From NCBI GenBank assembly GCA_947453335.1, contig CANGFP010000001.1, positions 124,001-188,000 on the forward strand: a stretch of 64,000 nucleotides of DNA. Direction: 5' to 3'. The notes under the pieces are model-generated. The model made no database searches, had not been told where the DNA came from, and worked only from the letters and a program-made list of their open reading frames with translations. This DNA is from Opitutia bacterium. Its GTDB lineage: Bacteria > Verrucomicrobiota > Verrucomicrobiia > Opitutales > UBA953. Shown here piece by piece: positions 6,220 to 25,350 of the stretch (within the stretch, counting starts at the first letter, position 1; every line of letters starts with the position of its first letter). The position numbers and the translations under genes are program-made.

Positions 6220-6246
6220 GGTATTTGTGGTTTTGGGTTTGCCGAT

Positions 6247-6912: not shown

Positions 6913-7113
6913 GCGGTGAAGTATTGCATGGTTGGATTTGAACGAAAGAGGCGGCCCGCCTCCGGGTCGGCCCTTCGGCAGAATCGTTAACCCACTCTCT
7001 CAGATGGCCATAAAAGCCCAATAAAGACGGACTTTTTGGTTAACCGCGGACTTCAATAATTTTTAAGAGATGGTGTCACTTGACGGCTGGCCGATGAAAA
7101 CGAGCATAGGGCG

Positions 7114-8934
7114 ATGCAGCTTACTTCTTCGGTCACCAATCAACGGTGGGAGCATTTCCTGGTCTCTTCGCTGATGCATGCCTTGAGGAACGAGGCGGAA
7201 GCCAATTTCGCGAGCGATGTGGGGGACTACAAAGGAGCGAAGAAAGCCTTGAAGCGTGCTGAAGGTCTCAGGAAAACTTTGGCCTCGAAGAAACCCAAGT
7301 CGGCGAGTTCGACGCTGGCTAGTGCCAACAGCTTCATCCGCGACGCCGCAGGTGAACTGGGTGACTTCTTGTCAGGCCTTCAGCTGGTCGGCAGATTTAG
7401 GGACGGGTCGTCGTTGAGCAAGCAAGCGAAGGCCGTCTTGGAAAGGAACGGGCGCGTTGAGTCGGCGATGGCCTACTCCGAGGTTTGCCTCCGTTTGGTG
7501 CTGCCGGATCTGGTCGGATTGGATGAACATCGGTGGCCTGGCCATGTGTCCTATCGAGCCGGCCTGAATCATTTCGTGGCAGTATGCTTGCGAGTGCACT
7601 CGATTCTGCCGGAGGTCGACTTTGACGTGATCACCAAGGCGGCTGCGCGTCGGATCTTGGTGCCCGCCTTGGCTCATAACCTCAAGTTCTTCGCCAAGCA
7701 GCACGCCGAGGTCTACCGGATCTTTGTCTATTCGGACGACCTGCCTCTGCGTCACGGGAAGCCCCTCCGGAAGGAGGCGGTGGCGGAGGCCGTTCCGGGA
7801 GAGAGCAGGTACGTGGCAAGAAAATGGACACGGCTCTTCAATGCCTGCCTTGCGCTTGGCGACGAATGGGGCGGGAAGTTCCTGGGCGAACTATTCGTGG
7901 ACTTGCAGACGCTGCTCCGGGATTATGAAGCCGACCCCCGCTCTAGCCAGTTGTGGCGCGACCTTTCCATTTTGGCGGCAGGAGATATGGCCGTCGATGA
8001 GATGCTCGTCTCCTGGGTGATTGAGGACGTCGGTGGCGATCCTAAGGCCCAAGCCACGGGCCCCATCATCAATTGCGCGCGATCGCGGTTTGGTCTGCTG
8101 CGCTACGCCTACCTCATGGCCAATGAAGGGGAGGAGTTCCGCAGGGACTTTAGTGCGGGCGACCGGGCGGTGACCGAGTTGCTCGAGCGGCTTAGGAAAA
8201 GCAATGGCGGCGAACTGTCCGATCAACTGGTCAATCAGGTTTTCGGCTGGGCCTATCTGCTTTCCAGGAACAACTTGCTGGGAAGGAAATCGGTCGAGGC
8301 GCCCTTGGCGGAGAGGAATCTGGATCGCGCCGGAGAATTGCTCTTCGAGCTCCTTAACGAACTGCGGCTTAGTTCCGCTGTCAGCGAAATGCATCGGGCT
8401 TTGGCGTTGCGTTACTTGATCGGCTTTATGACGAACCCGCGTTTCATCAAGCCGTGGGTTAAGATCCGCGAGAATCCTCGGTCGCGAGCAAGCGTATACA
8501 GCTCCGGTACGGTGGAAGACTTGATCACGGACGCCGCAAAGATGAAGTTGATCCCGCAGAGCATCGTGCGACTGGCGAAGGCCCGGGTGGCCTTGCACCA
8601 CGCCTACATGCACCGTGGCGATGACGACCGCCATGCACAGGAGCTGCAGTCGTCGCTCGATCATTACGCCGCTATCCTCAAGGAACTGGATGAGCCCCTT
8701 GCTGCTGGTATCATGGATGGTGAGGTTATTGCCTGGGCGTTGCCCGAGATGTATTTTGCTGTCAATTCTTTGAAGCGGCATGACCTAGACAGCGCGGAGG
8801 ACTGGACGAACGTCCAGAATTCGCTCCAGGTTCTGGGCGAGATGCAGTACGGGGTCTTCTTTAGCCCAAAAGAAGAATTGGAACGTTTGGAAGAAGGCCT
8901 ACGCATGGCGATAGGGCCCTCCTTGGCGAAGTAA
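7114..8934 (+). CDS. large unknown protein, mostly helical
   Basis: I do not recognise this 606-residue protein. It appears almost entirely alpha-helical, without signal peptide or membrane segment. The first 110 residues are basic and lysine-rich (GAKKALKRAEGLRKTL and following). No nuclease, ATPase or NTP-binding motif is visible. It is divergent from the TauD-like gene across a 200-base region and stands upstream of the beta-CASP nuclease and R-M genes on the same strand. A structural or sensor role in that island is possible but unsupported by any motif. Codon use looks normal over the whole length, so it is likely a real gene. Confidence 0.75.
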   Translation: MQLTSSVTNQRWEHFLVSSLMHALRNEAEANFASDVGDYKGAKKALKRAEGLRKTLASKKPKSASSTLASANSFIRDAAGELGDFLSGLQLVGRFRDGSSLSKQAKAVLERNGRVESAMAYSEVCLRLVLPDLVGLDEHRWPGHVSYRAGLNHFVAVCLRVHSILPEVDFDVITKAAARRILVPALAHNLKFFAKQHAEVYRIFVYSDDLPLRHGKPLRKEAVAEAVPGESRYVARKWTRLFNACLALGDEWGGKFLGELFVDLQTLLRDYEADPRSSQLWRDLSILAAGDMAVDEMLVSWVIEDVGGDPKAQATGPIINCARSRFGLLRYAYLMANEGEEFRRDFSAGDRAVTELLERLRKSNGGELSDQLVNQVFGWAYLLSRNNLLGRKSVEAPLAERNLDRAGELLFELLNELRLSSAVSEMHRALALRYLIGFMTNPRFIKPWVKIRENPRSRASVYSSGTVEDLITDAAKMKLIPQSIVRLAKARVALHHAYMHRGDDDRHAQELQSSLDHYAAILKELDEPLAAGIMDGEVIAWALPEMYFAVNSLKRHDLDSAEDWTNVQNSLQVLGEMQYGVFFSPKEELERLEEGLRMAIGPSLAK

Positions 8935-9074
8935 GTTTGGATAACGTCTTCCCCAAATAAAATTGGGCCAGTTGGCCATTTTGTTCGTCGCCGATAACTT
9001 CGGGAGCGGCTTCTTGAGACCATATGTCTGGCATCGTTGTCCGCCTTGCTTGGTTGGCTGATGCTCTAGTTGTC

Positions 9075-9452
9075 ATGACTAATACCTCCGCTTGTCTTGC
9101 AACCTGTGATGCCCTCGCTCTCGTCGGCCGCATCGCTTGGCCCTCGTGCACCCGTTCGCCCGACGTTTTCAGCGTCGAGGAGATCCATTGCTCGCATGCC
9201 GCCGGGTTGCTTGCAGCTCAATATGGGTTCGAGGCCGTTGACTGTGGTTCACGGTTGGGCACCAACTGTGGTCAGCACTCCGTGGCATGCTGTGTTCTTC
9301 TCGATGCGGCCACGGAATCTGAAGTCTACCTCGCCTTTAACAACATGACTCGGCTCTCGGAACCAACGCCGAGTGCGAGCTCCATCGATCGCCAGTGGTC
9401 GTCGTTACTCGGGCACGCAACTGTGCCTACTCCCCAACCTATGGCCAACTAA
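9075..9452 (+). CDS. small Cys-rich protein before the beta-CASP gene
   Basis: This open frame codes for 125 residues from the ATG at 9075. An in-frame ATG at 9024 would add 17. It contains nine or ten cysteines, several in the middle (VDCGSRLGTNCGQHSVACC), without a recognised zinc-finger spacing. I know no family. Codon use is less GC3-biased than the neighbours, so the call is tentative. It ends 16 bases before the start of the beta-CASP nuclease gene, which supports co-transcription and argues that it is a real gene rather than leader sequence. Confidence 0.5.
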   Translation: MTNTSACLATCDALALVGRIAWPSCTRSPDVFSVEEIHCSHAAGLLAAQYGFEAVDCGSRLGTNCGQHSVACCVLLDAATESEVYLAFNNMTRLSEPTPSASSIDRQWSSLLGHATVPTPQPMAN

Positions 9453-9468
9453 GCCCAATTTATCACCC

Positions 9469-11958
9469 ATGCACATCCCCATGTCGCACCTCCAAGAGCT
9501 CTCCAACCTGCTCGATTCGTCCAAGACGGTCGGCCAGCTGAGCACCCCCAAGAAAGTCGATGCCGTAGGCGTCGGCAAACTCTCCGGCTACATGCAGCTG
9601 GGGCTACCTGATCATCGCGCGCTCTCGAAGTCACCGCTCTTCTACAAGCCTTTCGGCGCCTGCGGTACGGTGACCGGCTCGGCTCACTTCGTCTATCACT
9701 CCGCTAGCGGCAAGTGCTTCGCGGTGGACTGCGGCCTGCTTCAAGGCGAAAGCGATCCGGCAGCGAACGATGTCCAGCATCTGCCTATTCCTCCTAAGGC
9801 CTTGCACGCTCTTTTCCTGACGCACGCGCACGTCGATCACATCGGCAACCTCTTCGAGTGGCTACGGGCAGGGTTCCGCGGCAAGATCTACTGCACGGAT
9901 GTCACGTCGAAGTTGACGCTCCTCAGCCTCCGCGACGCCTTGAATCGTCAGCACCCCCAGGACGGCGATGAGGAGCTGTGGGAGATTCTCCCTACGTTGT
10001 TCGTCTGCCCGGACCGCAAATCCAACGCTTCACACGGGCGTCTCTTCCCGGTGGAAGGCGCCGAGGGGCTCCGCTACTCCTTTACTCCTACGTCGCATCT
10101 CATCGGGTGTGTCGCGCTTCGACTGATGTCCGCGGCCAAGGGGCAGTCTCACGCTGACATCATCTTCTCTGGCGACATCGGCCCGGTGATCGACTCGGCC
10201 GCGCACGGGGGGCTTGCACCCGCCCGGCTCTTGCCGACTTCTTACTCGGGCGTCGTAGTGCTAGAGGCGACCTATGGTGCCAGTGCTGACCGCGATCCGT
10301 TGACGTTGCTCGGCGAGGAACGTCTCAAGGCCCTGGCTGCGGTGATCAAGGAGGCTGTCTCAAGGGGCCCTAAGCCTCGGCTCATCGTGCCGGCGTTTTC
10401 GCTGGGGCGAACGACGGACCTCCTGTCGGATCTCTACCTGGTGCTGGCTTCGATGCGCAATGCCGCCGGCATCACCTCCACCGACGTGCCAGTCATCAAC
10501 GTCAGTTCCCAGCTAGCGGCGCAATATGCCGACGTCCTTGCCGAGTCCTATGCCTCTACCAAGGGCACTGGGGATTTCTCCTGGCTCAATCCGCACTCGC
10601 TCCTCGTAAAACTCGGTGGGCTGCCGTTGCTTAAGCGTCTTCTGTCGGCTTCGGCTGAGCCTATGCAGTTGCATGACGCCTCTGACGGCAAGGTCGTCGT
10701 CAACTGGGGCGAGGCCACGGATTCCGAGGGGCTTACCATCGTGATCGCAGGCTCCGGCACTTCCATCCAAGGCCGTGTTTGCCGTGAGATCATGGAGCAC
10801 GCCAAGAATCCTCAAGCGACGGTGCTGCTTTGCGGGTATTGCCCTGATTCGTCCTTGGGCAGTCAACTCCGTGACATTGAGCCTCGCTCCGTGGCGGAAC
10901 GGGCGGCCATGCCCCCTCTCTCCTTCCGTCTCTCCGAGGCAAAAGGCGGCAAGCCTCGTTTCTGGACCGAGCCAGCCGACTCGGTGAAGATCCACCTCGC
11001 TGACCTCTCGCCATACTATTCCGGCCATGCGGATTCCGGTTCGCTGATGAAGTACGCCCTTAGCCTAGGGAAGCCGCTCGATATTCCTATGGACTACATC
11101 CTGGTCCATGGCTCGAACAAAGCGCGTTCGCAATTGGCCCGCAAGCTGAAGGATGGGTTGGGCGCAGGCTATAATGTCGCCCGTGAGGTCCACTGCCCGT
11201 CCGCTAACTACCCGTGGTTCGATGTCGCGGAAAAGGAGTGGTGCTTTGAAGATCTCGGATCTCTGAGGTCTTCGATCCGCGTCAATGTGACCGAGCGCCT
11301 CGGGGCCGGCGTTTCTGCCTCCGGTGTAGCCCTTTCCATGTCCCGCGCCCTCGCACGCCACCTCAAGCTGAAGTCTCCGCAGGTGGCAGAAGGGAAGGGT
11401 GGTGCGCGTTTCGCGATCGTCGGCGAAATCTCCAAGTCTCGCTTCTCTCACGACGTGCACGTGATCGACCTGGGCGACGGAGACTTCGATCTCCGCGTCG
11501 ACAGCATCATCGGGAGCTGCCAATCAAACGAGGACTTCAAGGCTCGTTGCTTCCCTTGGGAGATGGCCGTGGCCTCGCTCGATGGATTCGTGGAGCTCGG
11601 CTACAAGCCCGTCGGTAAGGAGGAGGAGGTAGTCGACTTGATCCGTACCATCCGAGACCCGCAGCGCTCGTACCCTGTACTGCTCGTCACCAAACTCGGC
11701 GAGGATAACACCTGCGCCAAATTCCTAAGCAAGTCCCTCATGCTCGAGTCGGGTATCGTGCGCCTGGTGACAGGGCAGGGGCGTATCTTCGGCCGAGACC
11801 TCGGCCTGGATGTGCACTCCGGTGTTGGCATCTTCTTCGACGAGCGTCCAGGGTCTACCCCGGTCCAATTTTCGATTCTTCACCCCCTCGACAGCGCCCC
11901 GGCCTTCCTGGCCTGTCTGAACCGTCTGGAGGACGCCCGCCGGCTGTCTGCGGCTTGA
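9469..11958 (+). CDS. metallo-beta-lactamase/beta-CASP family nuclease
   Basis: The 829-residue product shows the complete motif set of beta-CASP nucleic-acid hydrolases. Motif 1 is the F-A-V-D-C-G strand; motif 2 is T-H119-A-H121-V-D123-H124; motif 3 is the His in T-S-H-L-I-G; motif 4 is the Asp in F-S-G-D-I-G. Motifs A to C follow as L-E-A-T-Y-G, the His in S-G-H-A-D-S and the His in L-V-H-G-S. This places it with CPSF-73, RNase J and related metal-dependent RNases or DNases. The C-terminal 250 residues or so are an extra domain I cannot name. ATGs at 9469 and 9481 are both possible starts. Its position upstream of a type I R-M operon suggests an accessory nuclease role in defence, which is inference. 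Confidence 0.85.
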   Translation: MHIPMSHLQELSNLLDSSKTVGQLSTPKKVDAVGVGKLSGYMQLGLPDHRALSKSPLFYKPFGACGTVTGSAHFVYHSASGKCFAVDCGLLQGESDPAANDVQHLPIPPKALHALFLTHAHVDHIGNLFEWLRAGFRGKIYCTDVTSKLTLLSLRDALNRQHPQDGDEELWEILPTLFVCPDRKSNASHGRLFPVEGAEGLRYSFTPTSHLIGCVALRLMSAAKGQSHADIIFSGDIGPVIDSAAHGGLAPARLLPTSYSGVVVLEATYGASADRDPLTLLGEERLKALAAVIKEAVSRGPKPRLIVPAFSLGRTTDLLSDLYLVLASMRNAAGITSTDVPVINVSSQLAAQYADVLAESYASTKGTGDFSWLNPHSLLVKLGGLPLLKRLLSASAEPMQLHDASDGKVVVNWGEATDSEGLTIVIAGSGTSIQGRVCREIMEHAKNPQATVLLCGYCPDSSLGSQLRDIEPRSVAERAAMPPLSFRLSEAKGGKPRFWTEPADSVKIHLADLSPYYSGHADSGSLMKYALSLGKPLDIPMDYILVHGSNKARSQLARKLKDGLGAGYNVAREVHCPSANYPWFDVAEKEWCFEDLGSLRSSIRVNVTERLGAGVSASGVALSMSRALARHLKLKSPQVAEGKGGARFAIVGEISKSRFSHDVHVIDLGDGDFDLRVDSIIGSCQSNEDFKARCFPWEMAVASLDGFVELGYKPVGKEEEVVDLIRTIRDPQRSYPVLLVTKLGEDNTCAKFLSKSLMLESGIVRLVTGQGRIFGRDLGLDVHSGVGIFFDERPGSTPVQFSILHPLDSAPAFLACLNRLEDARRLSAA

Positions 11959-12055
11959 TAGGGAAAAACAACCTAAAAGCCTCTTATTATTCCACCCAAC
12001 TGATTTTAGCGTAACCAAGTCATCCAAAAATCTACTAAAACAGGTTTGGTAAGCC

Positions 12056-12084
12056 TTGACAAAGTTGAGTCTTCTGCCCATAGT
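12056..12084 (+). promoter_or_regulatory. candidate sigma70-type promoter for the R-M operon
   Basis: A consensus TTGACA at 12056-12061 stands 17 bases before CATAGT (12079-12084), about 65 bases upstream of the Sel1 gene start. The region between the nuclease stop and the Sel1 ATG is unusually A/T-rich. If used, it would let the Sel1-to-HsdR genes be transcribed apart from the beta-CASP gene. Confidence 0.5.
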
Positions 12085-12150
12085 CCACCCATCGAGATCA
12101 CCCAAAGCAACGCGCCGACCCCACTTCCGCCCAATAAAATCAACCCTTCT

Positions 12151-13272
12151 ATGACCACCGCCATGACCCCCACCGCCACGATCACCGCCCCGTTCACCTC
12201 CACCCCTGAATCCCGCGAGGCCTTCGCCGAGGCCCGCCGCCTCATCAGCGACCGGGACTTCTCCGGGGCCATCACCCTGCTGACCCCCTTCGCCTGCTCG
12301 GGTGACCGTAACATCCTCTTCACCCTTAACTACGCCCACGAGCGCCGCCGCCTCCCTGGCGACCGCGTCAAGTCCTTGGCCTACCTGAAGGAGGCGGCCG
12401 AACTCGGACACCAGAAGGCTACCGAAATCATTGCCCGACGCAAGGTGGCCCGCCTCATCGGAAGCAAAGGTCAGATGACTGATCTGCGCCCCTTCCTGGT
12501 CGCGACCGCCAAAGCCTTCTTTCCCTTGGAGATTGCCAGCTCCACTGAGCTCGACACCTGCGGTCTCGCGGAACTTACCGCCTCGGTCGGGCTCGCCCTG
12601 GAGGAAGCGTCTAAGTCCGGCGATCGCCTCGCTCAGACCGCCCTCGCGGTGACGCTCCTCCATGCGGACACCCCCACCGATGCGTCTAACGCGAAGGCCC
12701 TCCGTCTTCTTCAGTCGGCTATCGATGACGGCCAGTACGAAGCGATCCGTTTCCTGGGCCGTGCCTACCTGGACGGGACCCTGATTCCGGCCGACTTCAC
12801 GAAGGCTTTCGAACTTTTCCACCTTGGTGCGGAAATGGGCTGCACCGAGTCCCGACACCGCCTCGCGGAGTGCTACCTCCGCGGTACCGGCGTCGAGGCT
12901 GACATCCCTGTCGCCGTGCGCATCCTTAAGGAGAACACGAAGGCGGGTCACCCCTACTCCCCGTGCCTTCTGGGCGCTCTTTATCTCGAGGGCACCAAGG
13001 TCCCGCAGGACATCATCTTGGGTCGCGACCTCCTGAAGCTCTCCGCCTCCCGCCGCTGCGCCACTGCCGCAGCCCAGCTGGCGCACTTCTTCCTCTGGAA
13101 TCCGGAGTACGCCCTGATCGGCTACGAGCGACAGGCCTATGCCTACATCGCCAAGGAGCTTGGGGACGATTCCAAGCTCGAGGAGTTGGCCGGGCTGCCT
13201 CTGGCCGAGTTCCCCGAACTCCTCAAGTCCGTGAAGCTCATCAAGTCGGTCACCCCCGAGCCCAACTTCTAA
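12151..13272 (+). CDS. Sel1-repeat protein in the R-M operon
   Basis: From the ATG at 12151 (an in-frame ATG follows at 12163) the product is 373 residues. At least five Sel1-type helical repeats are readable, with A-x-x-x-L-x-x-A and G-x-x-Y/L-x-x-G-x-G spacing, clearest at residues 175-330 (for instance RFLGRAYLDGT and HRLAECYLRGTG). No signal peptide is visible, so it is probably cytoplasmic, unlike many Sel1 proteins. Sel1 arrays bind other proteins, and the neighbouring genes suggest an adaptor or sensor role. It ends five bases before the next gene, consistent with one transcript through the R-M genes. Confidence 0.8.
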   Translation: MTTAMTPTATITAPFTSTPESREAFAEARRLISDRDFSGAITLLTPFACSGDRNILFTLNYAHERRRLPGDRVKSLAYLKEAAELGHQKATEIIARRKVARLIGSKGQMTDLRPFLVATAKAFFPLEIASSTELDTCGLAELTASVGLALEEASKSGDRLAQTALAVTLLHADTPTDASNAKALRLLQSAIDDGQYEAIRFLGRAYLDGTLIPADFTKAFELFHLGAEMGCTESRHRLAECYLRGTGVEADIPVAVRILKENTKAGHPYSPCLLGALYLEGTKVPQDIILGRDLLKLSASRRCATAAAQLAHFFLWNPEYALIGYERQAYAYIAKELGDDSKLEELAGLPLAEFPELLKSVKLIKSVTPEPNF

Positions 13273-13277
13273 ACCCC

Positions 13278-14168
13278 ATGTCGTACAACCACCGTAAGGC
13301 CGTCGCCGCGGCCGAAGACCAGGTCCTCCAGCTCGGAAAGCTCCTTGAAAAGGGTAGCTTGTCCGACCTCATCCACCCCGATCATGCCGCGCCTGAAGCG
13401 CGTTGGCGCGATGCCGGCTTCGCCATCCTGCTTAATGAGTCGGAGGAAAAGGACGCCGACGAAAAATACCTGATCATCTTCACGCCCCTCGCGCGCGAGG
13501 TCTCGGGTTTCATGCATCGCATCACCGACGGGTCGATGGCTGCGGTGCTCGAGAATACGGACTTCTCCTCGTTCTTCCTGCCTGTTTACCAGATCTTCGT
13601 CGACCACATGGTCAAGCCACGTGCCAAGGACCCGAAGCCGGGTGTCAAGTCCGCCCCGGCGCCCGCCTGGGAGGTCTTGGCGATGCGCGCTGTGATCTCC
13701 CACGCGCTTGCCTGGCTCAAGAAAGTGAAGCAGAAGGCGCCGTCGCCCGAGTTTGATGGCCTCGTGGAGGAACGTCCGAAATCCTACCAGGAATACCTCC
13801 GTCGCAAGGCGGAGCGCAACGGGGTGCCGAAGAAGGACGCCGACAACGAGTTCAACGAGCTCACCAAATCGATGGAGGAGCTCGCCGAAGGCGTCAAAGG
13901 CCTCGCTGAATCTACCAACCACGAGCTCAAGTACATCGCCCGAATCCCCGGCTACCTGACGTCCAAGGCCTGGTTCCCCCAGTTGAGCCCCTACCTCCGC
14001 ATCACCGAAAAGCAGCTGGTGCAGGTCTACAAGGTGCTGGTCCGCCTCAAGGTCGACCCCGCCCCTGCGATGAACCAGCTTTACGGGCATTACGTGGCCC
14101 ATTGTGGACATCTGGGGGTGGACACGAAAGCCCCCACGGGCAAGGTGAAGCCTCGTCGCAAGAACTGA
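13278..14168 (+). CDS. unknown protein between Sel1 and half-HsdS genes
   Basis: I do not recognise this 296-residue protein. It starts at the ATG at 13278, five bases after the Sel1 stop, and its own TGA is one base before the next ATG, so it is tightly embedded in the operon. It appears helical and highly charged, without membrane segments. A Lys/Glu-rich region at about 150-205 (SYQEYLRRKAERNGVPKK and following) may form a coiled coil. The C-terminus is basic (KVKPRRKN), which may contact nucleic acid. No catalytic motif is apparent. Its fixed position suggests a component of the R-M-associated machinery. Confidence 0.75.
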   Translation: MSYNHRKAVAAAEDQVLQLGKLLEKGSLSDLIHPDHAAPEARWRDAGFAILLNESEEKDADEKYLIIFTPLAREVSGFMHRITDGSMAAVLENTDFSSFFLPVYQIFVDHMVKPRAKDPKPGVKSAPAPAWEVLAMRAVISHALAWLKKVKQKAPSPEFDGLVEERPKSYQEYLRRKAERNGVPKKDADNEFNELTKSMEELAEGVKGLAESTNHELKYIARIPGYLTSKAWFPQLSPYLRITEKQLVQVYKVLVRLKVDPAPAMNQLYGHYVAHCGHLGVDTKAPTGKVKPRRKN

Positions 14169-14169
14169 A

Positions 14170-14901
14170 ATGCCCGCCGCTACACCCCAGTCCAAGCATC
14201 GCCAGACCACGCTCCGCGAACTCATCGTCGGGGGCGAGGAACAGGTGCGCCAGGTCATTTTGACCGGTCCGGTCGGCCCCCGTCGAAACCGCGAAGATGG
14301 CAAGGAATACGGATCGCGCGCACTCAAGGCCGAAGGCGAGCCCAACGTCGCCCTGATTTCCTTCGGGGATCTCAACCGCGATGGCACGATTGATTACCCG
14401 CAGACTCCGACGATCCCCTATTCGCCCGGTATCCATGACTACGTGGTCCGTCCGGGGGACATCCTCCTGCGCGGTCGCGGCTATGTCGGGTCCCAAAAGG
14501 TCGCGGTCGCCGCATTCATCGCTCGCGACGCTCACGATTTCGCGCTGCGAGACTTGCGTAAGAGCGCCTCGGAAGTCCACTTCGCCTACAACTCCTCGCT
14601 TTTGCGCATCCGTCTGCAGGGTGACGGGGTCAACGACGCTCCCGGCCTCGACCCGGAATACTTAGCCGCCTACATCAACTCTTCGGAAGCGCAGCGCCAC
14701 CTCGCCAATAAGAGCAAGGGCACCCTGATCGCTAGCGTCAGCAAGAGCGACATCCTGGACCTTCCGATCTCCCTTCCTCCCATCTCCGAGCAGAAGCTGC
14801 TCGTTCAATTGATACGTGCCCGGGCTGAGTACGCCCGGGTCTCCTCTCGCCTCAGCGAGTGCTATGGCCATCTGGCCAACCACGCCTTCAACCGATCCTA
14901 A
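14170..14901 (+). CDS. half-size HsdS-like specificity protein, single TRD
   Basis: At 243 residues this is about half the usual HsdS. It has one target-recognition-like domain (the P-N-V-A-L-I-S-F-G-D-L and V-V-R-P-G-D-I-L-L-R-G-R-G strands) and one conserved helix starting with the signature LPPISEQKLLVQLIRA near residue 198, then a short C-terminal helix. A full HsdS for the same system lies 1.5 kb downstream. Half-S proteins can dimerise into a functional specificity subunit or compete with the full one. Here it may provide a second specificity or serve another complex. It begins one base after the preceding stop and ends 19 bases before hsdM. Confidence 0.75.
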   Translation: MPAATPQSKHRQTTLRELIVGGEEQVRQVILTGPVGPRRNREDGKEYGSRALKAEGEPNVALISFGDLNRDGTIDYPQTPTIPYSPGIHDYVVRPGDILLRGRGYVGSQKVAVAAFIARDAHDFALRDLRKSASEVHFAYNSSLLRIRLQGDGVNDAPGLDPEYLAAYINSSEAQRHLANKSKGTLIASVSKSDILDLPISLPPISEQKLLVQLIRARAEYARVSSRLSECYGHLANHAFNRS

Positions 14902-14920
14902 TCCCTCCCTTTCCGAATCT

Positions 14921-16438
14921 ATGAGCAAACCCTCCTCCAAAGTCACCCAGGACCAGGTCAATGCGGCCGCCTGGAAGGCCTGCGATACCTTCCGCGGCGC
15001 CGTCGATCCGACCCAGTACAAGGACTACATCCTGGTGATGCTGTTCCTGAAGTATATTTCCGACACCCACAAGGCCCACCGCGCCGAGTTGATGGCGAGG
15101 TATGGGGACGACACCGTCCGCCTTGTTCGCGCCTTGGAGCGTGAGCGCTTCCAGCTTCCCAGTGGCTCCTCCTTCGACGAGCTCCACAAGGCCCGAGGCG
15201 AGGCCGACATCGGCGAGCGCATCAACAAGGCCCTCGAAGCGATCGAAGAGAAGAACCGTTCGAAGCTCGAAGGGGTGTTCCGCAACATCGACTTCAATAG
15301 CGAGACGCTCGGCCGTCCGACCGAGCGCAACCGTCGCCTCAAGGCCCTTATCGAGGACTTCGCCAAGGATGAGCTGGATCTGAGCCCCGGCCGCGTTGAC
15401 GTGGACGTGATCGGCGAGTGCTACATCTACCTGATCTCCCAGTTCGCGTCCGACGCCGGCAAGAAGGCGGGCGAGTTCTATACACCCAAATCCCTCGCCC
15501 AGTTGCTTGCCAAACTCGCTGCTGTCCAAAAAGGACAGACCATCTTCGACCCTTCGTGTGGGTCCGGCTCTCTCTTGCTGGAGGTATCCAAGGAGGTTGG
15601 AAGCCTCGACTTCGCTCTCTTCGGCCAGGAGGTCAACGGGGCGACTTGGGCACTGGCTCGCATGAACATGTTCCTGCACGGGCAGGATTCCGCGGTCATT
15701 AAGTGGTGCAATACGCTCACGGGACCTGAGTTGGTCGAGAGCGGCCGGCTGATGCAGTTCGACCGCATCGTGGCCAACCCGCCGTTCTCCTTGGACAAAT
15801 GGGGCGCGGAGGACGCCGAAAATGACCGGTTCAATCGCTTCCGCCGCGGCGTCCCTCCTAAGGGTAACGCCGACTACGCCTTCGTTTCGCACATTGTGGA
15901 GTCCCTCAAGCCGGGATCGGGTAAGGCTGCGGTGATCATCCCGCATGGTGTTCTCTTCCGCGGTGGCGCCGAGGGCCGTATCCGCCAGAAACTGCTCGAG
16001 GAGAACGTCATCGACACGGTTATCGGGATGCCTGCCGGCATGTTCAGCTCCGTCGGCATCCCGGTGGCCATCATGATCATCGACCGTAGCCGGGAACCGG
16101 GCGGGGCGAACGCCAAGCGCAAGGACGTCCTCTTCATCGACGCCTCCCGCGACTACCTGGAGAACAAGAAGCAGGTCACCCTGAGCGATGCCCAGGAGAA
16201 GAAAATCGTCGAGACCTACGTCTCCCGGAAGACGATCGAGAAGTATTCCCACGCCGCGACCTTTGACGAGATCAAGGAGAACGACTTCAACCTGAACATC
16301 CCTCGCTATGTCGACACCTTCGAAGCCGAAGCTGTCGTCGACATCGCCAAGGTCCAGCAGGAGATCCTCGACCTCGAGAAGAAGCAGGCCGAACTCCGCG
16401 TGAAGATGAGCCAGTATCTCAAGGAGCTTGGCCTGTGA
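14921..16438 (+). CDS. hsdM: type I restriction-modification methyltransferase subunit HsdM
   Basis: This 505-residue protein is the N6-adenine methyltransferase subunit of a type I R-M system. It has the N-terminal HsdM helical domain (AAWKACDTFRGAVDPTQYKDY). The SAM-binding motif I is F-D-P-S-C-G-S-G-S-L near residue 209, and the catalytic N-P-P-F follows near residue 286. It would act with HsdS to modify host DNA and with HsdR to cut unmodified DNA. I chose the ATG at 14921 because the open frame upstream overlaps the half-HsdS gene. The last four bases overlap the GTG of hsdS. Length and motif order are normal for the family. Confidence 0.95.
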   Translation: MSKPSSKVTQDQVNAAAWKACDTFRGAVDPTQYKDYILVMLFLKYISDTHKAHRAELMARYGDDTVRLVRALERERFQLPSGSSFDELHKARGEADIGERINKALEAIEEKNRSKLEGVFRNIDFNSETLGRPTERNRRLKALIEDFAKDELDLSPGRVDVDVIGECYIYLISQFASDAGKKAGEFYTPKSLAQLLAKLAAVQKGQTIFDPSCGSGSLLLEVSKEVGSLDFALFGQEVNGATWALARMNMFLHGQDSAVIKWCNTLTGPELVESGRLMQFDRIVANPPFSLDKWGAEDAENDRFNRFRRGVPPKGNADYAFVSHIVESLKPGSGKAAVIIPHGVLFRGGAEGRIRQKLLEENVIDTVIGMPAGMFSSVGIPVAIMIIDRSREPGGANAKRKDVLFIDASRDYLENKKQVTLSDAQEKKIVETYVSRKTIEKYSHAATFDEIKENDFNLNIPRYVDTFEAEAVVDIAKVQQEILDLEKKQAELRVKMSQYLKELGL

Positions 16439-17568
16439 AGTATACTTCCACGCCAATTTCAGACTTTGTGCGATCAAAGTCTGGAAACTCTTCTCTCATC
16501 AAAGGCAGGCTTGCTTCGATGCCTACTCGTAATCTTTACCCTGCATATTCTGCATCAGGTCAGGATGTTTGGCATACGGATTATTCACACGAAGGAGAGG
16601 CAATAATCGTTTCTGCAGTTGGTGCGCGATGCGGGAAAACTTTCATTGCTAGCGGGAAATGGTCGGCAATTGCGAACACGCACGTCATCTTTCCTGACAG
16701 GGACAAGGTTGACGTCTACTATCTAAATCTCATTTTAGACAACGAACATTTCTGGATTAGAGGCGGAAGCGCGCAGCCTTTTGTACTAGTAAAGAGGACT
16801 TTAAAAAAGAAAATCCCCCTCCCGCCGCTCGACGTGCAGCGCAAGGTAGCAAAAATCCTCCGGACCTGGGACGAGGCCATCGAAACCGCCGAAGCCGAGC
16901 TCAAGGCCAAGCAGGAGCGCAAGCGCTGGCTGATGCAGTCTGTGCTATCTGGTAGTCTCCGGCTTAAAGGGTGCAACAAGCCGTGGGACAAGAAGCGATT
17001 GGATCAAGTTGGCATGATTGTACCAGGCGGAACGCCGAGCACATCTATCCCTGAGTATTGGAATGGAGATGTGCCTTGGGCTACCCCAACGGAGATTACA
17101 AAACTTAAAAGCCCTTACATTTATAACACTGAAGCGCTGATCACTAGCGAGGGTGTCCGCAATAGCAGCGCAGCTTTGCTCCCGGCGGACAGCCTTATTG
17201 TCTGCACTCGGGCAACCGTGGGAGTCTGTGCAATTAACAAGGTGCCGATGACAACTAACCAAGGCTTTAAGAGCGTTGTTCCAGCAAGCACTGATGATAC
17301 CCTATTCCTTTATTACGTGCTGAACTCGATGCAGTCCACGTTCAATAGGTTGGCGCAAGGAAGCACTTTTTTGGAAATCTCGAAAACCCAATTCGAGAAG
17401 ATCACGATTATTTGGCCATCGGCCGATGAACGCCGTCTGATTGCAAGTCTGATGAGGACTTGCGACGAGCAAATCGAAAGCATTGGCGAGGCTATCGAAG
17501 TCCTCCGCACCCAAAAGCGCGGGTTGATGCAAAAACTGCTCACCGGCGAGGTCCGGGTGGCGGCATAA
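16435..17568 (+). CDS. hsdS: type I restriction-modification specificity subunit HsdS
   Basis: The 377-residue protein has two target recognition domains, each followed by a conserved helix with an Arg/Lys tail (LPPLDVQRKVAKILRTWDEAI near 125, and WPSADERRLIASLMRTCDEQI near 335). It sets the bipartite DNA site for HsdM and HsdR. GTG at 16435 gives the expected 4-base overlap with hsdM. The TRD-coding parts are visibly less GC-rich than the linker: 25 of 60 bases at 16441-16500 are G or C, against 41 of 60 at 16861-16920. This suggests that recognition domains were exchanged by recombination within conserved flanks. Confidence 0.95.
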   Translation: MKYTSTPISDFVRSKSGNSSLIKGRLASMPTRNLYPAYSASGQDVWHTDYSHEGEAIIVSAVGARCGKTFIASGKWSAIANTHVIFPDRDKVDVYYLNLILDNEHFWIRGGSAQPFVLVKRTLKKKIPLPPLDVQRKVAKILRTWDEAIETAEAELKAKQERKRWLMQSVLSGSLRLKGCNKPWDKKRLDQVGMIVPGGTPSTSIPEYWNGDVPWATPTEITKLKSPYIYNTEALITSEGVRNSSAALLPADSLIVCTRATVGVCAINKVPMTTNQGFKSVVPASTDDTLFLYYVLNSMQSTFNRLAQGSTFLEISKTQFEKITIIWPSADERRLIASLMRTCDEQIESIGEAIEVLRTQKRGLMQKLLTGEVRVAA

Positions 17569-17578
17569 CTTATAAATA

Positions 17579-20500
17579 ATGACGAACAAACGGGAAATCA
17601 TGCCGACGACGGAGGTCCACACTTCCCAGGTGCCGGCGTTGGTGATGCTTGCCGCCATGGGCTGGGAGATCTTGCCACAGTCCGAATGCGAAGCACACCG
17701 CGGACGCACGTCCCGCGTTTTGCTGGAGTCGGTGCTGATCGACCAGTTGCTGAAGATCAACCGCTACACCTACCGGGGCAAGGAATATGCGTTTGATGCC
17801 TCCGACGCTGCGGAGGCGATCCGTCAGCTTCGCCCTGATCCGACGGTTCAGCGCGGGCTGGTGGGCACGAATCAGATGCTGTTCGAGCGCCTGGTCTTGG
17901 GCGCGACGATCTCGAAGACGGTAGAAGGGGACAAGAAGAGCTACACGATGCGCTTCATCGACTGGGATAATCCGGAGAATAACCTCTTCCAGGCTACCCC
18001 TGAATTCTCCGTCGACCGTAACGACGGCAAGGGCGACCCCAGGGATGAGAAGACGGTCAGGAAGCAGGACGGGACCTACACGAGCCGCTGCGACATCGTC
18101 CTGTTGGTGAATGGCATCCCTTTTGGTGTGATCGAAAACAAGGCTCCTGGGGTGGAGGTAACGAAAGGGGTTCGCCAGCTGATCGCCTACCAGTCGCCGG
18201 CTGCGATCGCCCCGTTGTTCCACAGCGTCCAGTTGCTAATCGCGACCAACAAGAACGAGGCGCTCTACGCCGCTGTCGGTTCGGGTCGCAAGTTCTGGCT
18301 GAAGTGGCGCGAGCATCATGATGATGCGCTCATTGGCGGCCTGATCAATCGGCCCCTTTCGGCTGATAAGTTGCGGGACATCTTCACGGGTGATTTCGCC
18401 GGGGCCCGAGGTTACTACGATGAGCTCCGGTCGGCCGGGGTGGTCTCGGTGACTGAGCAGGATCGAGTGCTCCATGCCCTTTGCCGGAAGGAGCGGATCC
18501 TAGAGCTGGCCCGCACGTTCTCCCTCTTTGACGACGGTAAGCGCAAGATCGCCCGCCATCAGCAGTTCTTCGGCGTCAAGGCGGTCATCGAACAGATGAA
18601 GCAGCGCGACGGCGAAGGACGCCGAAAGGGCGGGGTGGTCTGGCATACCCAGGGTTCGGGCAAGTCCCTGACGATGGTGATGCTGGGCAAGGCCCTCGCC
18701 CTCGATAAGGAGTTCGAGAACCCGCGCTTGATCATCGTGACCGACCGCACCGAGCTGGATGTGCAGATCAAGCAGACCTTCCAGAACTGCGACCGTCTTG
18801 TGCGCCATGCCGGCACGGGGGCCGAACTCCTCGCGATGATCAAGGAGAAGACCACGGATGTCATCACGACGGTCATCAACAAGTTCGAGACGGCCGTGGA
18901 ACGCTCCGCAGGTTTCAAGGACGAGGACCCGAACATCATCGTGTTGGTCGACGAAAGTCACCGCACCCAGCACGGGACCTTGGCGACGAACATGCGTCGC
19001 TTGCTCACGAAGGCCTGTTATGTGGGCTTCACGGGCACGCCGGTGCTTTCCAAGGAAAAGCCCACCATCGGCCGTTTCGGGGGCATCATCCGACCGACGT
19101 ACACCATTGAGGATGCGGTCAAGGACGGCGCGATCGTGCCCCTGATCTACGAAGGTCGATTTGTCGCCCAGCACGTGCACAAGGAGACAATCGATGCCTG
19201 GTTCGAGAAGGAATCCGCTGGCTTGAGCGACAAGCAGATGGCGGACTTGAAGAAGAAGTATTCCCGCATCAACGTTCTTGGCCAGACCGGCCCCGCCATC
19301 TACGCGAAGGCACGCGATATCTCAGAGCACTTCTTCCGTGTCTGGAAGGGTAGCGGGTTCAAGGGGCAGGTGGTCGCCCCGAGCAAGGCGGCGGCTATCC
19401 GAATGAAGGAGATCTTCGACGACTTGGGTCAGATCAAGTCCGAGGTCATCATTTCCGGTCCGAATGCCCGCGATGGCGGGGACGAGGTCGAGGAAGACGG
19501 CGTCCCCGATGGGAGCGACGTCGTCAAGGTCTTCTGGAAGCAGATGATGGAGGAGTATCGTGACGAAGCGGGATACAACCGTGACATCGTGAAGGCCTTC
19601 AAGGGGGAGGGGGGGCCTGATGTGGTCATCGTCGTCTCCAAGCTGCTCACGGGCTTCGACTGTGATCGCAACGTGGCGCTTTACATCTGTAAACCGCTGA
19701 CGGAGCACAACCTTCTCCAGGCGATTGCTCGTGTGAACCGCAATTGCGAGCTGCCTCTTTCGGGAGGCGGCCTGGATGAGGATGGGGAGCCGGTCATGAT
19801 CCAGAAGCGTTATGGCTACATCTACGACTATGAGGGGCTACTGGGGGACCTCAACGAGGCCATGAACACCTACAAGGCACTCCAAGGTTTCGACGAGAAC
19901 GACCTCAAGGGAGTGGTTAAGCCGATCAAGGAGGTCATTGATGAGCTTCCTGGCGCGCATCGCCGACTGCTCGATCTGTTCAAGCCGGTGAAGAACAAGC
20001 TGGATCATGAGCAGATGGAACAGCACCTCCGCGATGATGAGGTTCGTAAGGAGTTCTCGAAGCGTCTTGCCGACTTCGCCCGTCTGATGGAGCAGGCCTT
20101 GGGGTCTGAGAAGGTCTATGAATACTTCGATGACAAGCAGATGGAGCAGTTCCGCGGGGACTGGGTTCGCCTCAAGAACCTCCGTCGTTCCGCCGCGCTC
20201 CGCTATCAGGACTCCATCGACATGCGGGAGTACGAGCCGCGCATCCTGCAGCTCCTGAATGACAACGTCGTGGCCGACCCGGCCAAAATGATCATCAAGC
20301 CGATCGACTTGAGCGTGAAGGGCGCTGTCGAGGAGGCCGTGGCCCAGTATGGCGTAACCACCGGCGGCGCGACAGGCGAGACGTCGCGCGCCAAGGCCGA
20401 CCGGATCGAGCGAGCCGCCAAGAAATACATCCGCGACAAGCTGGAGCAGCACGACCCGGCTTTGGCCCGGAAGTTCTCGGATATGATCGCCGAAGCCCTG

Positions 20501-20923
20501 GAAGCCTATGCCCAGAAGCGTCTCGATGACCAACAGTTGGCGGAGTCCTTGGCCAAGATCACCCAGGAGATGGTTGACGGACGCCGCGATGAGGCCCTGC
20601 CGGAAGGCGTGCGCAATGATAGCGACTCTGCGGCGTTCTATGGTCTCGTCGTGCCCTATGTAGTCGAACTCAAAGGTGCCGGCCAGGAGGCCAACCAGGT
20701 GGCGGCTGATATCGCGGTCAAGGTGAAGGAGCTGCTCCTGAGCCATCGCATCGTCCGCTTCTGGGCCAATGACGACGCCCTGAACCGCTTCAAGGGGGCC
20801 TTGGACGATTACTTCTTCGATGAGGTCGGTCGCAAGATGGGCATCAAGATCCCCGTCCAGAAGCTCGACGAACTCCAGGACTCGCTTCTTAAGACCGCCC
20901 AGCGTCGTTTCCCGGATGCCTGA
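17579..20923 (+). CDS. hsdR: type I restriction endonuclease subunit HsdR
   Basis: The 1114-residue product is a full-length HsdR. The N-terminal PD-(D/E)xK nuclease is seen as D172 with E186-x-K188 (DIVLL then ENK). The SF2 translocase follows: Walker A at G-S-G-K-S near residue 360, a DEAD-like D-E-S-H near 460, and the later G-F-T-G-T-P and A-R-V-N-R-N motifs. The helical C-terminal region, which normally contacts the methylase core, is present. It begins 11 bases after hsdS, so M, S and R form one operon. All key residues are intact, so the enzyme should be active. Confidence 0.95.
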   Translation: MTNKREIMPTTEVHTSQVPALVMLAAMGWEILPQSECEAHRGRTSRVLLESVLIDQLLKINRYTYRGKEYAFDASDAAEAIRQLRPDPTVQRGLVGTNQMLFERLVLGATISKTVEGDKKSYTMRFIDWDNPENNLFQATPEFSVDRNDGKGDPRDEKTVRKQDGTYTSRCDIVLLVNGIPFGVIENKAPGVEVTKGVRQLIAYQSPAAIAPLFHSVQLLIATNKNEALYAAVGSGRKFWLKWREHHDDALIGGLINRPLSADKLRDIFTGDFAGARGYYDELRSAGVVSVTEQDRVLHALCRKERILELARTFSLFDDGKRKIARHQQFFGVKAVIEQMKQRDGEGRRKGGVVWHTQGSGKSLTMVMLGKALALDKEFENPRLIIVTDRTELDVQIKQTFQNCDRLVRHAGTGAELLAMIKEKTTDVITTVINKFETAVERSAGFKDEDPNIIVLVDESHRTQHGTLATNMRRLLTKACYVGFTGTPVLSKEKPTIGRFGGIIRPTYTIEDAVKDGAIVPLIYEGRFVAQHVHKETIDAWFEKESAGLSDKQMADLKKKYSRINVLGQTGPAIYAKARDISEHFFRVWKGSGFKGQVVAPSKAAAIRMKEIFDDLGQIKSEVIISGPNARDGGDEVEEDGVPDGSDVVKVFWKQMMEEYRDEAGYNRDIVKAFKGEGGPDVVIVVSKLLTGFDCDRNVALYICKPLTEHNLLQAIARVNRNCELPLSGGGLDEDGEPVMIQKRYGYIYDYEGLLGDLNEAMNTYKALQGFDENDLKGVVKPIKEVIDELPGAHRRLLDLFKPVKNKLDHEQMEQHLRDDEVRKEFSKRLADFARLMEQALGSEKVYEYFDDKQMEQFRGDWVRLKNLRRSAALRYQDSIDMREYEPRILQLLNDNVVADPAKMIIKPIDLSVKGAVEEAVAQYGVTTGGATGETSRAKADRIERAAKKYIRDKLEQHDPALARKFSDMIAEALEAYAQKRLDDQQLAESLAKITQEMVDGRRDEALPEGVRNDSDSAAFYGLVVPYVVELKGAGQEANQVAADIAVKVKELLLSHRIVRFWANDDALNRFKGALDDYFFDEVGRKMGIKIPVQKLDELQDSLLKTAQRRFPDA

Positions 20924-21632
20924 TTACGTCCTCCGTACGGAACTCGACGGCAAGCGTCTCGATTGCCGTCTCGTATTCTCACGTCGCAAGACCCTCCAAC
21001 TGGAGGTCCTCCCCGACATGTCCGTGCGCATGATCGCGCCAGAAGGCACCAAGCCAGAGGTTTGCATGAAGATGCTGAATAAGCGCAGGGACTGGGTCCG
21101 CACCCAGCTGCGCTACTTCAGCCAGTTCCACCCCTTGACCAAGCCCCGGGAATATGTCTCCGGGGAGACACACCTCTTCCTGGGTCGCCGCCTGAGACTT
21201 AAGGTAGCGAAGGGCTCCGCCAAGGGCGTGAAGGTCACGAGGCAACACCTGACCGTCTGCGCCGGCCAAACGACCTCCGCACGCCTGGTGGAGGCTGAGC
21301 TATGGCAGTGGTATCGTGAGCAGGCCGCCGATCTGTTCCAGGAGCGAATGTTGGGCTGCATGGTGAAGCTTAACATCCCTAAGAACGACGGACCTAAGTC
21401 CCTCATCGTGCGCCGGTATAAGTCTCGCTGGGGTTCGATGAGCGCCGACGGCGTCCTTGGCCTCAACCTGGACCTCATCCGGGCCCCGATCGAGTGCATC
21501 GACTACGTCATCATCCACGAACTCTGCCACCTGCGCTTCCCGCATCATGGCCCGCGCTTCTGGGATCTGCTTGAGCGAGTCATGCCCGACTGGCGTAAGC
21601 GAAAGACCAAGCTCGAACGCCTGACAGCCTGA
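20916..21632 (+). CDS. YgjP/DUF45-like metallopeptidase (WLM/SprT-like)
   Basis: From the ATG at 20916, overlapping the hsdR stop by 8 bases, the product is 238 residues. It has the M48-superfamily YgjP-like fold: a central R-Y-K-S-R-W-G-S-M segment, then the zinc motif H-E-L-C-H near residue 198 and a downstream third-ligand H-G-P-R-F-W. YgjP-like genes are often found next to type I R-M operons, but their role there is not settled. Degrading or remodelling HsdR, or DNA-protein crosslink repair, have been considered for relatives. Translational coupling with hsdR argues for a function linked to restriction. Confidence 0.85.
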   Translation: MPDYVLRTELDGKRLDCRLVFSRRKTLQLEVLPDMSVRMIAPEGTKPEVCMKMLNKRRDWVRTQLRYFSQFHPLTKPREYVSGETHLFLGRRLRLKVAKGSAKGVKVTRQHLTVCAGQTTSARLVEAELWQWYREQAADLFQERMLGCMVKLNIPKNDGPKSLIVRRYKSRWGSMSADGVLGLNLDLIRAPIECIDYVIIHELCHLRFPHHGPRFWDLLERVMPDWRKRKTKLERLTA

Positions 21633-21640
21633 CTAATTTT

Positions 21641-22114
21641 ATGGTTACTGAGCCTATCCGTGTCAGCGAAGAGTATCTCCGGTTCATTTATTTGCCTGGC
21701 CACTGTTATAAAAGGGGCACGGACAAGGAATACTTATTGTATGCCACTCGATACGACCTCACGCTTCTCGACGTTGAATTCGTAAAGGAGGGATACGACA
21801 GAAATCTGCTCAATGGCGTGATGTACTCGAAGGACAACAACTTCGAGGCATGGTTCTACGACCACTGCATGAAGCGCATGATTCGACCAGTGGGTGCGAT
21901 GGAAGAGTTTAGGCAGTCTCAAGACGCCGAAATCCGAGGAATCGCCATTAAGGCGCTGTTCGACCGCTATGGCGTGACGGAGGCGGATCGCCTCTCGTCT
22001 CGGATGTCCGACGTCAATGAATCAGTAGCAAGATACGCCTTCTGGACGATGATGGCGACAGGCTTGTCGGCGCTCGCCGCGTTGGTTTCGTGCAGCGCAT
22101 CTCTTTGTAAGTAA
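21641..22114 (+). CDS. small unknown protein with a C-terminal membrane segment
   Basis: This gene codes for 157 residues and begins 8 bases after the metallopeptidase stop, so it is probably still part of the R-M transcript. The soluble part is rich in Tyr, Asp and Arg, and I recognise no family. The last 25 residues include one hydrophobic segment (WTMMATGLSALAALVSC), suggesting a tail-anchored topology with the bulk in the cytoplasm. Base composition is lower in GC than hsdR, which may indicate separate acquisition. A membrane-anchored accessory or effector protein is a possibility without direct evidence. Confidence 0.65.
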   Translation: MVTEPIRVSEEYLRFIYLPGHCYKRGTDKEYLLYATRYDLTLLDVEFVKEGYDRNLLNGVMYSKDNNFEAWFYDHCMKRMIRPVGAMEEFRQSQDAEIRGIAIKALFDRYGVTEADRLSSRMSDVNESVARYAFWTMMATGLSALAALVSCSASLCK

Positions 22115-22215
22115 CCTTCTGGACTAAGTGTCGCTCGCGTAACGAGCCCCTCGCGATTCACAAAATATAAGGCGAGCATATGGACGACTCCGTCTATCTG
22201 GGCATACTTTAGCTT

Positions 22216-22977
22216 ATGGTAATCATCGAGAATAAGTCCTACTTCGACACGCTGGATGACGAGGTCAGCCGGCTCATCACAGAGATCAATCCCAGCGATA
22301 ACCAGTTCGTTTACAGGAAGTCCAAGAAACGGCTGGAGGCCTATGTGCTTCGTCATCGCGGGGAGATGTTCCGTTTCCGTAAGGAGGCGCTATCGTTGGT
22401 CGGCAGCAATGACTCGGTGCTGATCAAAGTAGGTCCGGCCAAGCGCGGGCATCTGGCGGCCTATCGAGGCCATTGGGTCCGAGTCATCTGGTACGGTACC
22501 TATGGCTTCAGCATGGATTGCTTGGTGCACAAGGTGAAGATGTCTAAAGAGGTGGAAGCGAGGCTGATTCCGAGGGGGCCGTACACGAAGGAGGAGTTCA
22601 CCAAAGAGATGGAGAAGTTTTACCCATTCCACAGCGTTGTCGTGGGAGGGGAAACCTTGTTGCGCGCTCAAAGCGGGCGTTGGGTGAGCAACATCCCGAC
22701 GGAAAAGGCGTTGGATAACCTCGAGAAGGACGAGATTCCGGATGGGACCTACTACGACAGGAAGGTGCCGCATAAATCCGGCTCAAGCTACGACATGATT
22801 AGCTACAGAAAGCACGCAGGGCTCTGGATTAAGACGATTGTATCGCACGCGGAGGTCAATTCAGGGGCATTAGATTGGGCGCCAGCCGACACTCGCTTCC
22901 ACGTCCGGGGGACCCGGGATCTCCCGAGCGGCACCTTCATCCGGACGCAGGATGGTTGGAAGTTTGAAGGTCGATAA
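22216..22977 (+). CDS. unknown protein, soluble, alpha/beta
   Basis: I do not recognise this 253-residue protein. It has no signal peptide or membrane segment and is rich in Lys, Arg, Tyr and Trp, with several short beta-like strands (HWVRVIWYGTYGF, TYYDRKVP). No metal or nucleotide site is visible. It follows a 101-base gap holding no gene and ends 9 bases before the next gene, so the two are likely co-transcribed. Its composition resembles the preceding small gene more than the R-M core, which fits a cargo segment at the end of the island. Confidence 0.65.
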   Translation: MVIIENKSYFDTLDDEVSRLITEINPSDNQFVYRKSKKRLEAYVLRHRGEMFRFRKEALSLVGSNDSVLIKVGPAKRGHLAAYRGHWVRVIWYGTYGFSMDCLVHKVKMSKEVEARLIPRGPYTKEEFTKEMEKFYPFHSVVVGGETLLRAQSGRWVSNIPTEKALDNLEKDEIPDGTYYDRKVPHKSGSSYDMISYRKHAGLWIKTIVSHAEVNSGALDWAPADTRFHVRGTRDLPSGTFIRTQDGWKFEGR

Positions 22978-22986
22978 TCAGCTAAC

Positions 22987-24186: not shown

Positions 24187-24208
24187 CTCCGTTAGTTCGG
24201 TGTGAGGC

Positions 24209-25282: not shown

Positions 25283-25350
25283 GAGGCAGTACGCTGATGC
25301 GATTTGATTTGGGCGCAAAGCAATAACAGCCGCCCGCACAAGAGATCAGT

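Follow-up and report, generated by a model that had tools for sequence, protein, structure and literature searches.

A type I restriction-modification (R-M) locus of an Opitutia bacterium (Verrucomicrobiota) is preceded by a gene for a beta-CASP metallo-beta-lactamase nuclease, and the relatives of this nuclease likewise lie in defence loci. The locus belongs to a stretch of 64,000 nucleotides, hereafter the window (C1:124001-188000; contig CANGFP010000001.1 of assembly GCA_947453335.1, which spans 1.13 Mb and is 63% complete). Between the nuclease and hsdM it encodes a Sel1-repeat protein, an orphan protein and a half-HsdS with a single target-recognition domain (TRD); a YgjP-like metallopeptidase follows hsdR (Table 1). 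Taken as a whole, the locus may represent a cargo-bearing type I system with a beta-CASP RNase as backup effector, a reading to which we give about an even chance. Type I operons with embedded effectors are already known, and the beta-CASP enzyme is a new effector type on this known platform; the finding is real and somewhat surprising, its functional reading unproven. We found no report of a beta-CASP enzyme as an embedded effector of type I systems; a full-text literature search, which had most subscription journals outside its scope, returned one review on CRISPR and one on Thermococcales, so that this absence is weak evidence.

The nuclease and its relatives in defence loci

The nuclease scores above the Pfam cut-offs for Lactamase_B (31.5 bits) and RMMBL (22.7 bits) and just below that for Beta-Casp (26.3 bits; cut-off 27.7). 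All seven motifs that the earlier note had attributed to it are present: motifs I-IV and A-C are complete, from D87 through H119/H121/D123/H124, H210, D236, E266 and H520 to H547. The gene starts at ATG 9469, exactly where similarity to its counterpart in Verrucomicrobiota bacterium BS8 begins (78% identity, dN/dS 0.115). The best solved relative of the nuclease core is the RNase TTHA0252 (3.7e-24), followed by aCPSF1, CPSF73 and Cas14. Motif C is a histidine in the RNase CPSF-73 and a valine in the DNA nucleases SNM1/Artemis (PMC7458816). In the window protein it is His547, which is invariant across all five relatives and places the protein among the RNA-type members of the beta-CASP group, suggesting that the enzyme is probably an RNase. 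Cas14 of type VII CRISPR is the best NCBIfam neighbour (84 bits), and membership in that family was rejected (83.8 bits against a cut-off of 800). The C-terminal domain (residues 595-829) has no match in plasmids or 103 order genomes and none at a meaningful E-value in the PDB; across plasmids, viral contigs and the genomes of phylum and order, its one relative is that of BS8.

In a sample of 388 genomes of the phylum, full-length relatives of the nuclease are few, namely G221, G006 and, more weakly, G342. All four members of the subfamily in this sample belong to defence loci, three to type I R-M systems that differ from one another and one to BREX, against none of 20 ordinary beta-CASP loci from that phylum (most of them covering about 19 kb), in which neither hsd genes nor brxC were found. 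The corresponding Fisher tests (type I, p = 0.002; defence loci of any kind, p = 9e-5) are to be read as indications, as the sample is small, the subfamily was bounded by score and the hsd and brxC queries included sequences from these same loci; the domain calls are independent. In G221, the genes for HsdR, HsdM, HsdS, an AAA protein and a 317-aa protein are followed by that for the beta-CASP enzyme. G342, from outside the class, holds a single same-strand run (L201:4283-19243, minus strand) of HsdM, HsdS, ABC-3C CTD9, AAA_23, DUF4268, beta-CASP, HsdR and an HNH protein, with the beta-CASP gene directly before hsdR. In G006, the nuclease directly follows an FGE-domain protein in a BREX locus without hsd genes; the BrxC gene, which is divergent, lies about 4 kb away. 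Among 151 genomes of another class, only beta-CASP matches of ordinary length (frames of 472-513 aa) were found. Given the 20 control loci, a pure chance neighbourhood is unlikely, and the link of this beta-CASP subfamily with defence looks real.

Next to this R-M type, the trio of beta-CASP, Sel1 and orphan genes was seen in two genomes only, that of the window and BS8 (L050), with its order unchanged; it is a rare module. The two loci share 88% identity in HsdM and HsdR, 86% in YgjP and 74% in half-HsdS, compared with 30% in HsdS. The dN/dS ratios (Nei-Gojobori) are 0.08-0.33 for every gene except hsdS; hence the genes are kept under purifying selection, and hsdS alone has been swapped. Sel1 evolves fast (54% identity, dN/dS 0.33). 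The orphan protein was found nowhere else in the 388 phylum genomes and only in BS8 among 36 further genomes; it likewise has no relative besides BS8 in plasmids, viral contigs or order genomes and no credible PDB match. One match of its profile, to the designed coiled coil 8qae (8.5e-6), was set aside as compositional.

By rpoB identity, BS8 is a congener (98.1%) and nearer to the window genome than VK4 (94.2%), which gives no support to a recent exchange of the locus among unrelated genomes. G685, of the same genus, has hsdM, hsdS, hsdR and YgjP and lacks both half-HsdS and the module; the matches of its hsd locus are identical to those of the VK4 locus. The earlier note had proposed to look for the full gene order in unrelated genomes, and had regarded the association as accidental if related genomes carried the hsd genes without the upstream genes and the latter occurred without R-M. 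The whole order recurs in the congener BS8 and in no unrelated genome of those searched. VK4/G685 do carry the hsd genes without the upstream ones. As to upstream genes without R-M, there is one beta-CASP relative (G006), whose surroundings are still those of a defence locus; none of the genomes searched had the Sel1 or orphan protein without R-M.

Two further features of BS8 were noticed. Its hsdR is split into overlapping frames (10001-10486 and 10483-13299 within L050:10001-13816) and its YgjP is shortened; these frame changes may be long-read errors or, alternatively, real inactivation. Directly upstream of its beta-CASP gene, on the minus strand (L169:6800-9508), BS8 encodes two proteins that were not found in the window: another half-HsdS, of 301 aa, and an N6-methyltransferase-like protein of 600 aa. 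The latter seems to have ALVHS where NPPF would be expected, and a search of plasmids gave no match to it.

Half-HsdS and YgjP in the type I core

HsdM, a two-TRD HsdS and HsdR occur together, with TIGR00497 and TIGR00348 above cut-off and the catalytic motifs intact (NPPF in HsdM; GSGKS, DESH and the nuclease motif VIENK in HsdR), identifying the system as type I. MADS membership was rejected on NCBIfam scores (MAD2, 59.9 against 720 bits for HsdM; MAD5, 22.6 against 400 bits for half-HsdS). In tblastn searches, half-HsdS and HsdR match the same two plasmid records (Mesorhizobium and Methylomonas), and five plasmid neighbourhoods show the order half-HsdS, HsdM, HsdS, cargo, HsdR, SprT/YgjP. 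A scan with an HsdR alignment, one genome per species, yielded 80 loci, which were pooled with the plasmid and order loci for counting; as loci were picked by HsdR similarity, the counts describe this R-M subfamily only. Half-HsdS directly precedes hsdM in 74 of the 78 loci with enough upstream sequence, nearly all of them without beta-CASP, and YgjP follows hsdR in every locus (86/86). Judged by record titles, the subfamily extends over Alpha- and Gammaproteobacteria, Acidobacteria, Actinobacteria (Streptomyces, Cryobacterium), Cyanobacteria and Binatia, with Verrucomicrobiota from the order search. Thus half-HsdS and YgjP belong to the core of this type I subfamily and are not special partners of the nuclease. 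The earlier note had considered a beta-CASP RNase tied to HsdS-like adaptors. The pairing of beta-CASP with type I systems recurs (BS8, G221, G342, and with BREX in G006), whereas half-HsdS as a nuclease-specific adaptor is rejected by its general position before hsdM; YgjP, which had been counted as a peculiarity of the arrangement, turns out to be a general companion.

Most loci of the subfamily hold extra genes between hsdM and hsdR. The 86 extra proteins include 13 DUF6119, 10 RhuM, 10 DUF3800, 10 HAD, 7 kinases, 6 Shedu and 3 KwaB proteins, as well as single SMODS, TIR, Abi_2, SEFIR and Schlafen proteins. Because these genes are so varied, this R-M type is a platform for exchangeable defence genes. 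In two Synechococcus assemblies (L121 and L124) with the same R-M type, the stretch from hsdS to hsdR holds an array of extra genes that is unusually long.

The half-HsdS profile (A7) matches HsdS structures at 1e-19, and its model (pLDDT 77.5, from 43 sequences) matches single-domain Esub1 and HsdS in Foldseek. Half-HsdS might dimerise and form with HsdM a second methyltransferase for a symmetric site ('Type 1 1/2'), giving the locus two specificities. Its single TRD and one dimerisation-type helix, as modelled, would suit such a role, as would its place next to hsdM, and there is precedent for S subunits with a single TRD and for homodimers (PMC3874165). Against this, half-HsdS remained 74% identical between the window and BS8 while HsdS was swapped, and its motifs are nearly invariant across phyla. 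We therefore consider a second specificity possible but doubtful, and the same conservation suggests that half-HsdS may be a structural element that stays constant, and not a specificity that diversifies. Found before hsdM across several phyla, it constitutes a fourth gene of HsdS/HsdM/HsdR type in a large type I subfamily; no described role for this conserved half-HsdS was found in the literature.

Gene layout and possible modes of action

All genes lie on the plus strand at or near the positions given in the earlier note, which also placed the single-TRD protein correctly, 19 bases before hsdM. HsdM and HsdS overlap by 4 bp, and HsdR is coupled to YgjP, as had been noticed, by an overlap of 8 bp. 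Sel1 and the orphan gene form a continuous run without a gap into half-HsdS and on to hsdM. The same-strand run that had been taken for one operon is present, but it probably comprises two transcription units, the beta-CASP gene in one and Sel1 through YgjP in the other, because a promoter-like site in the gap after beta-CASP is conserved in BS8. The promoter scan overall gave no excess (3 sites, compared with 4.6 in shuffled sequence), so the case for this promoter rests on its position and conservation. TTG 12046 was rejected as the Sel1 start since it precedes the conserved promoter, and ATG 12151 is most likely the start. An Rfam search of positions 6000-25000 returned no match.

Table 1. 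Features of the type I R-M locus in the window (window coordinates)
Feature	Position	Strand	Remarks
beta-CASP metallo-beta-lactamase nuclease	9469..11958	+	829 aa; core about 60-594, orphan C-terminal domain 595-829
promoter-like site TTGACA-17-CATAGT	12056..12084	+	10/12 consensus; between beta-CASP and Sel1; kept in aligned BS8 gap
Sel1-repeat protein	12151..13272	+	Sel1 8.9e-22; frame opens TTG 12046, likely start ATG 12151
orphan protein	13278..14168	+	296 aa; no family match; relative found in BS8 only, 75%
half-HsdS	14170..14901	+	one TRD and one long helix; PADLOC Specificity_I 1e-9; HsdS-structure matches
HsdM	14921..16438	+	N6_Mtase 5.1e-97; HsdM_N 5.2e-28; NPPF motif present
HsdS, two recognition domains	16435..17568	+	Methylase_S in two stretches, 8.4e-37; GTG start
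HsdR	17579..20923	+	TIGR00348 388.5 bits (cut-off 284.55); HSDR_N, SWI2_SNF2
YgjP-like metallopeptidase	20916..21632	+	YgjP-like 2.5e-54; HELCH motif; ATG start

Several neighbouring genes were also recorded. Upstream of the nuclease, a 606-aa protein (7114-8934, plus strand) has no family match and no counterpart in the BS8 locus. Downstream, a 253-aa protein (22216-22977, plus strand) without a PADLOC match is 44% identical to a BS8 protein likewise located downstream of YgjP and may belong to the island. On the minus strand, the frame at 24209-25339 encodes about six tandem repeats around 'SYGTW...TGKTHGF' with a PEP-CTERM-like end. Elsewhere in the same genome (G000:C2:3066-3536), a 1087-aa frame for another ResIII-type helicase may encode an additional restriction subunit; the hsd proteins of the window had no match in the stretch around it (L048).

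In a system with a backup effector, HsdM2-HsdS would modify and HsdR restrict DNA, while Sel1 and the orphan protein, bound to the R-M complex, would hold the beta-CASP enzyme latent. A phage that blocks or overwhelms restriction would release the nuclease, which would then cut RNA and stop the infection as a PrrC-like guardian. This particular trigger we consider rather unlikely on its own, compared with the broader backup-effector reading. Relatives of the nuclease in antiviral defence clusters suggest such a second line of attack when restriction is blocked. Four points weigh against the backup-effector reading as a whole. The subfamily comprises only four members from 388 genomes, with a boundary set by score; the full module is one evolutionary instance and not two, because BS8 is a congener; the conserved promoter downstream of the beta-CASP gene probably puts this gene in a transcription unit of its own; and the AlphaFold2 model of the nuclease is poor (pLDDT 49.7) and uninformative over the C-terminal domain.

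A separate transcription unit is also what would be expected if a stand-alone beta-CASP defence set were parked beside a type I R-M system in a defence island without mechanistic coupling. Defence genes cluster in general, a beta-CASP relative stands beside BREX without hsd genes in G006, and in the congener VK4/G685 the R-M genes occur with no such module. Yet Sel1 and the orphan gene run without a gap into half-HsdS and hsdM in an order kept in BS8, and in G342 the beta-CASP gene lies inside the hsd run; uncoupled neighbours thus appear an unlikely explanation, if a serious one. Alternatively, the nuclease might be a housekeeping-type RNase or RNA-processing factor that tunes R-M expression, for example by cutting a long hsd transcript, and would then not be triggered by infection. 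R-M genes are often in need of regulation, the nuclease probably forms a separate transcription unit, and its closest solved relatives (TTHA0252, aCPSF1, CPSF73) are RNA-processing enzymes. Such a role is very improbable, as the subfamily occurs with unrelated hsd genes and with BREX, where the target transcript would differ, and as ordinary beta-CASP RNases were not found near hsd genes (0/20 loci). A bolder variant would make the type I modification half, together with the constant half-HsdS, a DNA sensor gating the beta-CASP RNase, i.e., a restriction-coupled RNA-cutting immunity distinct from PrrC. The second half-HsdS of BS8 and its methyltransferase-like protein, apparently without NPPF, would then serve the nuclease as its own type I sensor, devoid of catalysis; we regard this variant as improbable.

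If the backup-effector reading is true, beta-CASP nucleases, otherwise known mainly as housekeeping RNA/DNA processing enzymes and from type VII CRISPR, would also be effectors recruited by type I R-M and BREX, and would add to the few enzymes that are known as backups of restriction.

Comparison with known systems

R-M operons with toxin-like accessory genes are an established idea (Makarova 2012, PMC3506569). Unrelated defence systems have repeatedly taken up nucleases of the metallo-beta-lactamase fold: those of AVAST, Lamassu, Hachiman and DRT are paired with a trypsin-like protease that activates them (PMC12799240). These enzymes are ComEC-like DNases, however, and PMC12799240 mentions neither beta-CASP nor restriction or BREX. 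Cas14 is a beta-CASP enzyme in the service of defence as well; the window nuclease is far below its cut-off and lies in a type I R-M context instead of a CRISPR operon.

Closer in architecture is the RRDM island, RptR-HsdM-HsdS-DarTG2-HsdR-M48, in which DarTG separates hsdS from hsdR and the gene for an M48 peptidase follows (PMC12255303). It shares with the window type I genes, an embedded toxic module, a downstream zinc metallopeptidase and, as cargo site of the subfamily, the gap between hsdS and hsdR; it differs in having the repressor gene rptR upstream, where the window subfamily has half-HsdS, and DarTG rather than beta-CASP as cargo. The alphaproteobacterial half-HsdS/HsdM/HsdS/HsdR/SprT loci (Mesorhizobium pB2-1-8, Paracoccus albus p3) have the same core in the same order, with HsdR 49-50% identical, but carry other cargo (DUF6119/TIGR04141, Shedu, HAD, RhuM, kinase) and none of beta-CASP, Sel1 or orphan protein.

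The nearest functional parallel would be EcoprrI, a type IC R-M system with the embedded anticodon nuclease PrrC (PMC3874165, PMC12707154). PrrC, which cuts tRNA anticodons, has another fold and is encoded within the hsd operon; domain and family scans found no PrrC family protein among the window proteins. In the window, by comparison, the beta-CASP gene lies upstream, is probably transcribed separately and has Sel1 and orphan partners, with a gating that we infer. Both loci nevertheless combine type I genes with an enzyme that cuts RNA, or in the window probably does so, and for both a backup role when restriction is blocked has been proposed.

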